Shown here piece by piece: positions 44,371-47,968 of a stretch of DNA of 64,000 nt. The stretch is from an uncultured Lachnospiraceae bacterium (GTDB taxonomy: Bacteria > Bacillota > Clostridia > Lachnospirales > Lachnospiraceae): contig CANREB010000004.1 in assembly GCA_947629525.1 (NCBI GenBank), positions 1-64,000 on the forward strand, in the 5' to 3' direction. The translations under genes and the position numbers were made by a program. The notes under the pieces are model-generated. The model was not told where the DNA came from, ran no database searches, and was given only the letters and a program-made list of their open reading frames with translations. Position 1 is the stretch's first letter. Each line of letters begins with the position of its first letter.

Positions 44371-45171
44371 TTAATCTGTAAAAAGCTGTGCCCAGTAGCG
44401 CCAGCCGTTTTCCGTAACCAAATAGCTTACACCAAGCTTTCCATAATCGCCTTTCAAAATATTTGCACGATGTTCCGGGCTGTTCATCCAATCCTCCATG
44501 ACCTCTTCCGGTGTAGTCTGACCCCATGCAATGTTTTCGCCTGCACACCTATATTTAATACCACACTCATCAAAAACCGTAAAGCAGCTTGTGCCATTCG
44601 GACGGGTATGCTCACACAAAATTACCATCTCCTTAGCCCGGATATTTGCCGCATTTGCAAGCTCATCACTCCATGACAGCGCTGAAAGCCCGACCGCGGC
44701 GCGCTCTCTGTTTACTATGTCCAATACCTGTCTGGCATAGCTGTTCTCCGAAACAATACCACCATTTTTCTGCGCCGTGGGAACTTTGCCAAGCCTGCCT
44801 TCCGCTTTGCCGTACTGAATATAATGCTGATACAGCACATCTGCATTCGTTCCTAATGCCGCCACTACATCAGGATTTGCATACGCATAAAACGTCGCGT
44901 CAAATTCTTCATTTGGAACTGTTAAATCCGTCAAATCATTTTCCGGCGATACAGCCGCCCGCCCCTCTGATTTGCCATACATCAGATAATGTTGGTACAG
45001 TGCATTTATATCAGTACCCAACGCCGACGCTACATCAGGGTTTACCTGTGCATAATACTCGGCATCAAACAATGTGTTGTCAGGCATTAACTCTGGCTTG
45101 GCATACGCTGTAGTTCCCATACCAAGCACACAAGTTAAATATACAGCTGCTATCATAAATTTTCTTTTCAT
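44371..45171 (-). CDS. Secreted CAP/SCP-domain protein with two N-P-D-V repeats
   Basis: A 266-residue exported protein. A signal peptide (about residues 1-24, ending A-Y-A) precedes two copies of a roughly 45-residue repeat: FDAEYYAQVNPDVASALG then LYQHYLMYGKSEGR, and FDATFYAYANPDVVAALG then LYQHYIQYGKAEGR. The C-terminal CAP domain (about 140-266) has VNRERAAVGL, HTRPNGTSCF, CAGENIAWG and WMNSPEHRANIL, with both conserved His and Glu. Clostridial CAP domains are found in surface or matrix-associated proteins; activity unknown. ATG at 45171 follows gaggtgg. Confidence 0.88.
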   Translation of the reverse strand: MKRKFMIAAVYLTCVLGMGTTAYAKPELMPDNTLFDAEYYAQVNPDVASALGTDINALYQHYLMYGKSEGRAAVSPENDLTDLTVPNEEFDATFYAYANPDVVAALGTNADVLYQHYIQYGKAEGRLGKVPTAQKNGGIVSENSYARQVLDIVNRERAAVGLSALSWSDELANAANIRAKEMVILCEHTRPNGTSCFTVFDECGIKYRCAGENIAWGQTTPEEVMEDWMNSPEHRANILKGDYGKLGVSYLVTENGWRYWAQLFTD

Positions 45172-45267
45172 TCCTGCTCCACCTCGCAATTCAATTTGTT
45201 ATATGAGTGCATATATTATATCACTTTTTGACATCTGTTTTTGTCCGAATGAGCAATTTAGTTTACA

Positions 45268-46356
45268 TTAAAATAACGGTACTATATAATTAATCCACCT
45301 GTCATTGGTATCATTCACTTTCAACATTATCCCAATATGCCTGGTTTCATCTGCACTGACGGTTAAATAAAGGTCTTCACCATCCTCACTAATTTTTTCC
45401 AAATTATTTTTAATGTATTCTATATGCTCATCATTGTTAGCCTTCAAAAATGAGATTACTTCTATCTGTGCGGCATATTGAACCATATCGCTCTCATAGA
45501 AATATTCGTAATGAATATTTTTATCATTTTTAGTCAAATATCCCATAGCACCTTTTACACCGCCAACTATCGCTGAAGCAGCAGCCTCAACTTTTGTTTG
45601 CTCCCATTCTTCTGATGCTTTTTCTTTAATAGCTTCTGACATACTGTCTTTTTCTAAACCTTTTCCTATAACATCCTCAACTTCGGAAGTTATTTCATCA
45701 CTGTCAATATTCTCAAGCTTTTTTTCTGTAGATTTCATAACATTATCAAAAACCCCTTTTGCTACAGCTTTAAGACCATTTAAAAATCCACTATTGTTTT
45801 TATCTTTTTCTTCCATGGATAAAATCGTATAGCCCTTTTTCTCCGAAACCTCCCATTCCACTCCATTATGATTTGCCCACTCTTCCAACTGGCTCAGGCT
45901 TAGGCAAGAAGCGTCTATATAATCTATATCTGAATAATCAATTTCAGGTACATATATAGTAGCTGTTCCCTTATTAGACTCTGTTTTATCATTAACTGCA
46001 TAAACCTCTATGGAATAGTCCATGCCTCTGTCCTTAATCGGTACGTAAAACTTATTTTTTGATGTGAATAATTCCCCTCTAGTATTAGTATAACTATAAT
46101 ATACATGATATGATTTAACTCCGCTAACCTCTGTCCATTCAAAACAAACATATTCACCATCAATATAACAGTTTGTTATCTGTGGTGCTTCAAGCGCAGC
46201 TTTAGTTTTTGCTTCGGCAGATATGCCAGTACCAAGACATACGATAGTTACCATAAACGCCATTATCATTGCTGTAATTTTTTTATTTAGTTTTTCTGAT
46301 TGATTTTTAAATCTACTTTCCATAATCTGTTTGTCCTTTCTAAACTTTTTGTTCAT
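45268..46356 (-). CDS. Secreted protein of unknown function with a fibronectin-III-like domain
   Basis: A 362-residue protein. A basic N-terminus and a hydrophobic signal segment end G-I-S-A-E-A-K. A beta-sandwich-like region follows (about residues 58-135; PQITNCYIDGEYVCFEWTEV, then VKSYHVYYSY), resembling FnIII, then an acidic helical region and a C-terminal domain of no recognised family. The ATG at 46356 overlaps the stop of a 25-codon upstream ORF (ATGA), suggesting coupled translation. An alternative ATG twelve codons in (46323) has its own aaagga site. The promoter contains a nine-base G tract, so expression may be phase variable. Confidence 0.7.
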   Translation of the reverse strand: MNKKFRKDKQIMESRFKNQSEKLNKKITAMIMAFMVTIVCLGTGISAEAKTKAALEAPQITNCYIDGEYVCFEWTEVSGVKSYHVYYSYTNTRGELFTSKNKFYVPIKDRGMDYSIEVYAVNDKTESNKGTATIYVPEIDYSDIDYIDASCLSLSQLEEWANHNGVEWEVSEKKGYTILSMEEKDKNNSGFLNGLKAVAKGVFDNVMKSTEKKLENIDSDEITSEVEDVIGKGLEKDSMSEAIKEKASEEWEQTKVEAAASAIVGGVKGAMGYLTKNDKNIHYEYFYESDMVQYAAQIEVISFLKANNDEHIEYIKNNLEKISEDGEDLYLTVSADETRHIGIMLKVNDTNDRWINYIVPLF

Positions 46357-46430
46357 CTATTCTGATGCGACATCTGCCTGTAGCGGCATCCTGTATCCTG
46401 TGGCTTGTTATTCTTGTCCAACATTCTCAT
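46353..46430 (-). CDS. 25-codon upstream ORF of the secreted protein gene
   Basis: ATG at 46430 has a strong Shine-Dalgarno (ggagg, nine bases upstream). It encodes MRMLDKNNKPQDTGCRYRQM plus five more residues and stops with TGA overlapping the ATG of the next gene. No run of one codon suggests classic attenuation, so translational coupling is the simpler idea. The peptide itself has no recognisable motif. Confidence 0.5.
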   Translation of the reverse strand: MRMLDKNNKPQDTGCRYRQMSHQNR

Positions 46431-46472
46431 TTTCAATATCCTCCTATTATCATTTTATAATGCCGCTTATAT

Positions 46473-46503
46473 ATAATACCCCCCCCCTGTATAGGTTTGT
46501 CAA
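46473..46503 (-). promoter_or_regulatory. Promoter with G9 tract in the spacer (candidate phase-variable switch)
   Basis: Minus strand -35 TTGACA (46498-46503, perfect) and -10 TATTAT (46473-46478), separated by 19 bases of which nine are a G run (C9 on the plus strand, 46479-46487). Loss of two Gs would give the ideal 17-base spacer. Confidence 0.6.
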
Positions 46504-46598: not shown

Positions 46599-46711
46599 CA
46601 AGAAATCTTATCTTTGAATAAATCTGTTGAACAGTTTTGCATTTGTTTTTAAAAAACGAACAGTTTGTGCATGCGCCATATAATATTGATAAAAAAAGGG
46701 GGAAAATGCTT

Positions 46712-47968
46712 ATGAAAACCGCTGCTGTTATCGCAGAATATAATCCGTTCCACAACGGACATTTATATCAGCTCAACGCTATACGCGGCGAAATTAACGC
46801 CGACTGCATCATTGTGCTTATGAGCGGCGATTTTGTACAACGCGGCGAACCCGCGATTATCGACAAATACGCACGATGTGAAGCAGCGCTCAGAGGCGGC
46901 GCCGATCTTGTGATTGAGCTTCCTTCCTATTTTGCGCTTGGCAGTGCGGAATATTTTGCCAACGGCGCAGTATCACTTCTTGACAAACTTGGCGTGATCG
47001 ACGTACTTCACTTCGGAAGCGAATGCGGCGATATCGGCATTCTCACCAAATATGCCTCCTGCCTTGCATCCGAAACTCCGGAATACAAAAAAACACTCAA
47101 CATGTTTTTAAGACAGGGATTTTCATTCCCGACGGCACGTTCAAAGGCTATGTTGGAATGTTTCCACCTTGACGAAGATATTTTGTCTAAAGCCAACAAC
47201 AGCCTTGCAATCGAATATATCAAGGCTGTCATCAGACGCAAAAGTTCCATAAAACCTGTCACTCTCCTGCGCAAAGGCGGGGAATACGATTCGAAAAGTC
47301 TTACAAACGGCGAACCCGCATCGGCAAAAGCAATAAGGCATGCGCTTTTAAGCCTTCCCGAAAACAGCAGTGAAAATACCACAGATTTACTGCGTGAATT
47401 TATTCCGGACTATGTTTTGAAACATTTGATCAGTGATGTGCTTATGTGCATTGACGACTTTTCGGGATTACTGCACTACAAGCTCTTATCTTCGCAAAAC
47501 TTAACGGAAAAATATTATGATGTAAACGAAACACTTACAAACACTATTTTCAACAAGCTTCCATCATTTACTGCTTTCTCGGATTTTGTTTTGGAATGTA
47601 AATCAAAAAACCTTACTTATTCTCATATATGCCGGGGGCTTATGCACATAATCCTCGATATGACCGATGAAAATGCCTGCCTGTTAAAAGAAAACGATTA
47701 CTCCCTGTACGCACGCGTACTGGGGTTCTCCGACAATGGGAAAAATATCTTAAAGTCCATTAAGGCAAACTCATCGATACCAATAATAACAAAGCCGTCA
47801 AAAGCCCTTAAAGAGCTTGACGGCATAAGTCTGTCATCATTTAAATCTGACATTAATGTCACAAATATCTACAACAGCGTGCGTCTTCGGAAAGCATCGC
47901 ATATCCTGCGAAACAACACGCATCATATGATGCCGAACGAACTTACCCGTGAACTTATACGGATATGA
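46712..47968 (+). CDS. tmcAL: tRNA(Met) cytidine acetate ligase (TmcAL, YlbM family)
   Basis: A 418-residue enzyme that uses acetate and ATP to form N4-acetylcytidine at the wobble base of elongator tRNA-Met. The HIGH-like nucleotidyl-transferase motif is VIAEYNPFHNGHLYQLN (about residues 6-22), then IVLMSGDFVQRGEPAIIDK and a central GGADLVIELP. ATG at 46712 lies nine bases after a GGGGG Shine-Dalgarno; another ATG at 46706 is only three bases away from it. It is convergent with the DUF711 gene, whose stop lies immediately next to its own. Confidence 0.92.
   Translation: MKTAAVIAEYNPFHNGHLYQLNAIRGEINADCIIVLMSGDFVQRGEPAIIDKYARCEAALRGGADLVIELPSYFALGSAEYFANGAVSLLDKLGVIDVLHFGSECGDIGILTKYASCLASETPEYKKTLNMFLRQGFSFPTARSKAMLECFHLDEDILSKANNSLAIEYIKAVIRRKSSIKPVTLLRKGGEYDSKSLTNGEPASAKAIRHALLSLPENSSENTTDLLREFIPDYVLKHLISDVLMCIDDFSGLLHYKLLSSQNLTEKYYDVNETLTNTIFNKLPSFTAFSDFVLECKSKNLTYSHICRGLMHIILDMTDENACLLKENDYSLYARVLGFSDNGKNILKSIKANSSIPIITKPSKALKELDGISLSSFKSDINVTNIYNSVRLRKASHILRNNTHHMMPNELTRELIRI

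Follow-up and report, generated by a model that had tools for sequence, protein, structure and literature searches.

A stretch of 64,000 nucleotides from an uncultured Lachnospiraceae bacterium (the whole of it is referred to here as the window) contains a promoter in which nine consecutive Gs lie between the -35 and -10 elements. The locus raises the question of whether such a tract is an accident of base composition, a fixed structural or regulatory element, or a switch whose changing length would alter expression of the gene behind it. The last of these had been proposed in a preliminary description of the window, which regarded the downstream product as a candidate phase-variable secreted protein.

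The focal promoter

The features of the locus, in order along the window, are as follows.

44371..45189, minus strand: next gene, secreted CAP-domain protein (E 6e-21), ATG at 45171
45268..46356, minus strand: ORF of 362 aa, predicted secreted protein, start at 46356 or 46323, sub-threshold fn3 match
46353..46430, minus strand: 25-codon upstream ORF, its TGA overlapping the ATG at 46356 (ATGA), candidate coupling
46440..46445, minus strand: ribosome-binding site AGGAGG, 9 nt ahead of the ATG of the 25-codon ORF
46473..46478, minus strand: -10 element TATTAT, 19-nt spacer to the -35 element, read from the sequence
46476..46492, minus strand: ATACA-G9-TAT, a context shared with long G tracts genus-wide (ATAC 46492-46489, GTAT 46479-46476)
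46479..46487, minus strand: G9 homopolymer, directly abutting the -10 element
46498..46503, minus strand: -35 element TTGACA, read from the sequence
46637..47968, plus strand: neighbouring divergent gene, HIGH_NTase1 (TmcAL-type), conserved across the genus

Reading of the minus strand confirmed the original claim that TTGACA and the -10 element are 19 bp apart with nine Gs in the spacer, which consists of AACCTATACA followed by G9. By composition alone, one G8 run in 64 kb is unremarkable: the window holds two G8 matches (a single G9 run) where 0.85 would be expected, and at least two were obtained in 21 of 100 shuffles. In the genus, long G runs are in excess. Across 264,326 bases of genus sequence not picked for G-runs we counted 120 G5, 14 G6, no G7, no G8 and one G9, which is the focal tract. 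The non-chance nature of this tract comes from its context and not from composition in the window.

Recurrence of G-run promoters

Three further promoters composed of TTGACA, ten nucleotides, a G-run and TATAAT were found in the same genome (G000), giving four in total with spacers of 19, 20, 20 and 21 nt.

C16:49260: G11, spacer 21, before a LysM secreted protein
C16:44371: AG followed by G8, spacer 20, before an ORF of 133 aa with no Pfam family
C51:1818: G10, spacer 20, before a 403-aa ORF with no Pfam family

A fifth match (C73:1-21) sits at a contig end and was left out of the promoter count. With three mismatches allowed, the search of this genome returned one match to the reversed pattern; the exact layout gave none reversed.

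For the genus and the order we used the pattern TTGACA-N9..11-G6-N0..8-TATNAT, with the reversed pattern as control. Of 38 genus genomes, 8 contained a total of 20 sites, and the reversed control had none; of 392 order genomes, 24 contained 30 sites, against a single reversed match. When the run was mirrored as C6, no order genome matched (two matches in its reversed control), and a looser C7 mirror pattern matched once in the 38 genus genomes. Because the mirror C-run is absent from the same 392 genomes in which the G-run gives 30 sites, the feature is strand-specific, with G on the non-template strand.

Among named genomes, at least 118 stretches carry such sites with G8 or more, and the matches listed come mostly from gut Clostridia and Bacilli. 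Saccharibacteria, spirochaetes, Streptobacillus and Helicobacter are also present among the matches listed, with environmental genomes in the minority, and the isolates among them include Blautia wexlerae, B. luti and Merdibacter. In B. wexlerae MSK.20.46 (L069), a cultured human gut species, a G11 promoter tract precedes a large secreted protein; B. luti (L148), likewise a cultured human gut species, has a G9 promoter tract. Five stretches of viral contigs (L185-L189) contain G-run promoter-like sites as well. We considered the poly-G artefact of two-colour sequencing and ruled it out: the runs lie inside contigs, are specific to strand and promoter, and occur in isolates as well as in metagenome bins.

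The counts below refer to two collections. Set A comprises 46 sites from the genus and order searches, including one coding site (L036) and two CsoR-like sites (L043 and L055). Set B comprises 131 sites among the matches listed in the global and viral scans, including the five viral stretches. The Blautia site is counted in both sets.

Layout and spacer length

The run touches the -10 element in 35 of 46 sites of set A and, among the matches listed, in 107 of 131 sites of set B. Spacers range from 15 to 21 in set A with a mode of 19 (14/46), and from 15 to 23 among the matches listed in set B, again with a mode of 19 (46/131); the set B pattern demanded a spacer of at least 17 nt, so the low end of its distribution is under-represented. 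Of 56 ordinary TTGACA/TATAAT pairs in G000, 30 have a 17-nt spacing, as do 25 of 60 in another genome, G020; each total includes three G-run sites. It had been suggested that seven Gs would give the optimal 17-nt spacing. The arithmetic is right and 17 is indeed the commonest distance for ordinary pairs in G000, but the G-run promoters centre on 18-19. This centring fits either promoters that are mostly in OFF states or a shifted optimum.

The commonest spacers, of 18-20 bp, are also those expected of a MerR-type promoter, in which an activator untwists a long spacer of 19-20 bp containing a conserved dyad. However, the 9-10 nt before the run differ between sites, with no conservation beyond the genus and no conserved dyad, and spacers extend from 15 to 23. 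We therefore consider activation of the MerR type highly improbable.

Genes downstream of G-run promoters

As the first downstream gene we took the first with a ribosome site and 60 codons or more, and signal sequences were called by our own hydrophobicity rule, in place of SignalP. The first gene is signal-like in 29 of 44 cases in set A and in 73 of 108 among the matches listed in set B. As a genus control we took 30 ordinary promoters, for which 8 of 23 genes were called signal-like, three of these calls looking false by eye because the genes are PadR-like (Fisher p 0.02 for set A and 0.005 for set B among the matches listed). A second control, of 23 ordinary promoters within the set B loci themselves, gave 3 signal-like genes out of 15 (p 0.001). 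Both control sets are small (23 and 15 genes). G-run promoters are enriched before secreted-protein genes. Pfam searches with nine promoter-linked proteins identified LysM in four and a BspA-type leucine-rich repeat in one more, and in several contigs (L120, L124, L128, L137) paralogues stand in tandem, every copy behind a G-run promoter of its own.

Genome-wide poly-G tracts

Runs of G8 or longer number 29 in G000, 35 in G052 and 32 in G020, a total of 96 in ∼10.6 Mb, 81 of which are G9 or longer. We read all 96: 54 are coding and in frame, 19 coding and split, 9 are promoters by the strict rule and 14 are other, including two promoters by eye that the strict rule had missed. The coding tracts (73/96) lie mainly in surface-glycan genes, and 19 of the 73 are out of frame. 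The in-frame share (54/73) exceeds the one third expected from random lengths, and coding tract lengths are therefore not freely drifting. By a slightly different rule, 86 runs lie outside promoters; G lies on the coding strand in 71 clear cases, as against 4 for C.

A Pfam scan of 30 pieces, representing most coding tracts of G000 and a few of G052 and G020, recovered acyltransferases, GT2, GT61, Caps_synth, GtrII, MBOAT, FkbM and other methyltransferases, as well as ATP-grasp sugar transfer, YfhO and AMP-binding families. Radical SAM, a TIM-barrel isomerase-like protein and DUFs were also hit, and these are not obviously related to glycans; nine of the 30 pieces had no family match. Out-of-frame copies were found in otherwise intact surface genes, as is typical of poly-G coding contingency loci. 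In two split genes the halves match one Pfam model in order, 2-103 then 162-384 for AMP-binding and 281-522 then 634-832 for YfhO; the halves were confirmed for these two, and frame breaks were otherwise mostly scored from frame alone. An MBOAT gene is open with G11 in G020, while its G052 counterpart, with flanks 97-98% identical, meets a stop 31 nt after G9 (L246/L284). Clusters of 7-11 poly-G tracts, some out of frame, occupy capsule- or glycan-type regions in all three genomes: L251 (G000:C1:8500-28000), L266-L267 (G052:C6) and L268 (G020:C17).

Tract length differences between relatives

Nine homologous pairs align on both sides of the tract, and six of them differ by 1-2 Gs (4/7 promoter pairs and 2/2 coding pairs); the comparisons between species rest on one genome per species, and the focal locus, which is without a homologue, is in none of the nine. 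The promoter pairs that differ are L021/L024 (9/10 Gs), L047/L048 (11/9), the L120 paralogues (10/9) and L140/L156 (8/9), and the coding pairs are the MBOAT pair (11/9) and L260/L271 (10/9). The remaining three pairs, equal in length, all come from one orthologous promoter, whose copies L029, L034 and L038 have G10 in three species; the fourth copy, L035, likewise carries G10, together with an additional A. Both L050 and L051 carry G7. Before homologous LysM-type genes the tract reads G11 in L025, G6TG4 in L033 and G12 in L037.

These observations bear on whether the G-run could be a fixed structural spacer. A-form-like G tracts would shorten the helix, so that 18-20 bp would act as 17 in constitutive promoters whose tract length drifts slowly. 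The mode of 19 with G9-G10 agrees with such an arrangement, as does the one promoter group whose four species all have G10. The spread of spacers over 15-23, the difference in length in most of the aligned pairs and the presence in the same genomes of coding tracts of equal length that break genes argue against it, and we regard a fixed spacer as unlikely.

Flanking sequences of the tracts

Among the 86 long runs outside promoters, ATAC occurs at most 6 nt upstream of 31, and TAT follows 41. The combination of ATAC with TA is found in 25 of the 86 long runs, compared with 0/30 runs of G6-7, 0/121 of G5, 0/742 of G4 and 3/3536 of G3 in the same DNA, this shorter-run control being drawn from loci chosen for holding long runs. 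The pattern ATACN0-1-G7-N0-6-GTAT has 51 matches in 14 of 38 genus genomes, and its reversal has none. In three genus genomes, 24 cases have both ATAC and GTAT, and in 22 of them the two are separated by 9-10 nt. The in-frame coding runs with ATAC occupy all three codon positions (9, 7 and 4), and ATAC-flanked runs sit in unrelated Pfam families. In a test for hairpins between the flanks, mean pairing was slightly above that of shuffled partners (p 0.004), with p 0.30 for stems of 4 or more, and the association between ATAC and TAT among runs is not significant (p 0.18). The frequent placement of tracts in ATAC-(N)-G8..12-TAT could mean that a dedicated factor makes, holds or mutates them at a recognised site, a tentative idea that we judge doubtful.

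The same context is reminiscent of a known class of operator. In the RcnR operator, TAC and GTA half-sites flank a G tract about 9 nt apart, and the G-runs could by analogy be bound by a CsoR/RcnR/FrmR-type (DUF156) repressor. The 9-10 nt spacing of ATAC and GTAT and the genus-wide matches to the combined pattern, none of them reversed, are in line with this. Furthermore, by eye, two sites resemble real CsoR operators, the genes that follow them being CsoR-like and copper-ATPase-like (L043 and L055). These two, however, are palindromes of a C-run plus a G-run, unlike the G-only sites. The ATAC/GTAT context is found mainly inside genes of many unrelated families, and the upstream half is mostly missing outside the genus (0/5 non-promoter long runs among the matches listed in set B). 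A DUF156 operator is expected as an inverted repeat of fixed length in the promoter by a metal, aldehyde or sulfur gene or the regulator itself; the runs here vary in length from 6 to 16, are often coding and accompany secreted-protein and glycan genes. An operator of this kind is an improbable explanation of the G-runs. The coordinates of the two probable CsoR-type operators are L043:896-924 and L055:1501-1529.

Leader and neighbouring genes of the focal locus

The 362-aa product is signal-like by the hydrophobicity rule and has no Pfam match above cut-off, the weak fn3 match having an E of 0.005. The 25-codon ORF with its ribosome site, and its ATGA overlap with the downstream gene, are both present in the sequence, as the preliminary description had stated. 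That description further held that expression is tuned at two levels. The AGGAGG and ATGA elements are in place locally, but the gene downstream of the short ORF has no homologue in relatives, and a better start for the 362-aa ORF lies 33 nt downstream of 46356: the ATG codon 46323, preceded by AAAGGA at 46339-46334. Since this start gives a more normal n-region of the signal peptide than 46356 does, translation may begin there and not at the ATGA overlap. Translational coupling by the upstream ORF is a possible but weakly supported second level of control. If coupling were instead the main control and the G-run incidental, the ribosome site and overlap would be as observed; yet we found no conservation, the leader folds hardly better than shuffles (z -1.42, 16/200) and there is no Rfam match in it, which, with the alternative start, makes so prominent a role for coupling barely credible. 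The predicted 5' end of the leader (AGCGGCAUU, 46459-46467) can pair with the upstream ORF (GAUGCCGCU, 46382-46390), enclosing the ribosome site.

The CAP-domain gene may be read through from the G9 promoter or may have its own promoter, an extended -10 (TGATATAAT) at 45215-45223 on the minus strand, about 44 nt before its ATG. On the other side, the HIGH_NTase1 gene is present in 36 of 38 genus genomes. Neither a G-run promoter nor a homologue of the secreted gene lies beside it in the seven relatives that we read, and the 362-aa gene has no homologue among 39 relatives. For these reasons the focal locus appears, from the sequences compared, to be species-specific in this genome sample.

Discussion

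What characterises phase-variable promoters is found in these loci: a slippable homopolymer between -35 and -10, tract lengths that differ while the flanks are conserved, and surface or secreted products. Given the anatomy of the promoter, its recurrence, the link to secreted products, the length differences between relatives and the broken frames at sister tracts, slipped-strand phase variation of the G tract, altering the distance between -35 and -10, is probably the best explanation of the focal tract, with a probability that we put at about three in four. Against it speak the unchanged G10 of one orthologous promoter group, the G7 common to L050 and L051, the surplus of in-frame coding tracts and the centring of spacers on 18-19. 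Recurrence, differing lengths, secreted-gene enrichment and out-of-frame sister tracts thus lend indirect support to the candidate switch originally proposed, while its coupled-ORF component fares poorly. From these comparisons we infer that tract length changes reversibly within a strain and that transcription depends on it.

In the proposed mechanism, slipped-strand mispairing at replication would add or remove Gs, and each G would shift the -35/-10 distance by one base, making the sigma-A promoter stronger or weaker. With G9 the two elements stand 19 bp apart, and the focal gene, encoding a predicted secreted protein, is probably weak or off, although the modal spacing of 18-19 would also suit a shifted optimum. 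Expression should then rise when one or two Gs are lost. The focal promoter would be one of four such switches in its genome, which has about 30 long G tracts in all; most of these are coding, largely in surface-polysaccharide genes, and would switch by frameshift.

The three genomes, from gut commensals that appear to be Lachnospiraceae, hold 29-35 long G tracts each, in promoters and surface-glycan genes, and the promoter form is spread across gut Firmicutes and some other phyla, including the cultured Blautia wexlerae. Judging from these sequences, many G-runs in promoters and surface-sugar genes probably serve gut bacteria of this group as random on/off switches. If this is true, common gut bacteria would have surface proteins and capsules that change at random, which would matter to work on phages, on immunity and on metagenomes at strain level. 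The layout of these promoters can serve as a simple search pattern.

Comparison with known systems

Homopolymer promoter spacers and coding poly-G are known elsewhere, and we found no description of them for Lachnospiraceae: a literature search that reached few subscription papers and no bioRxiv returned none of poly-G promoter spacers in Lachnospiraceae or gut Firmicutes. The CsoR/RcnR operators share with the tracts the TAC...GTA arrangement about 9 nt apart, and differ from tracts that vary in length and lie in coding regions of unrelated genes.

A homopolymer in the promoter spacer gives phase variation of porA, opc and fetA in Neisseria meningitidis. Like these, the promoters described here have a homopolymer between -35 and -10 of a surface protein gene, the length of which is expected to tune the spacing. 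In contrast to Neisseria, they belong to Gram-positive gut commensals, carry G on the non-template strand only (C-run 0/392), with the run usually touching the -10 element, and precede many unrelated secreted genes in a genus-specific ATAC context. PMC7157529 lists porA, opc and fetA among phase-variable outer-membrane proteins. In the portion of Orsi 2010 (PMC2831843) available to us, homopolymeric tracts are presented as a general regulatory mechanism for reversible gene inactivation, with stress on poly-A/T near gene 5' ends in 81 bacterial genomes. The likeness to our tracts lies in homopolymers placed for such inactivation, whereas promoter-spacer poly-G is not described in that portion.

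The coding tracts have a close counterpart in the poly-G contingency loci of Campylobacter and Helicobacter. Those too are G8-G12 runs whose Gs lie on the coding strand, in genes for surface glycans; a genome has tens of them, and some are out of frame. The tracts described here differ in belonging to a different phylum, in occurring in promoters besides coding sequences and in sharing a flank context at the DNA level. Such loci of Campylobacter and Helicobacter are mentioned in PMC11868660 and PMC2831843.
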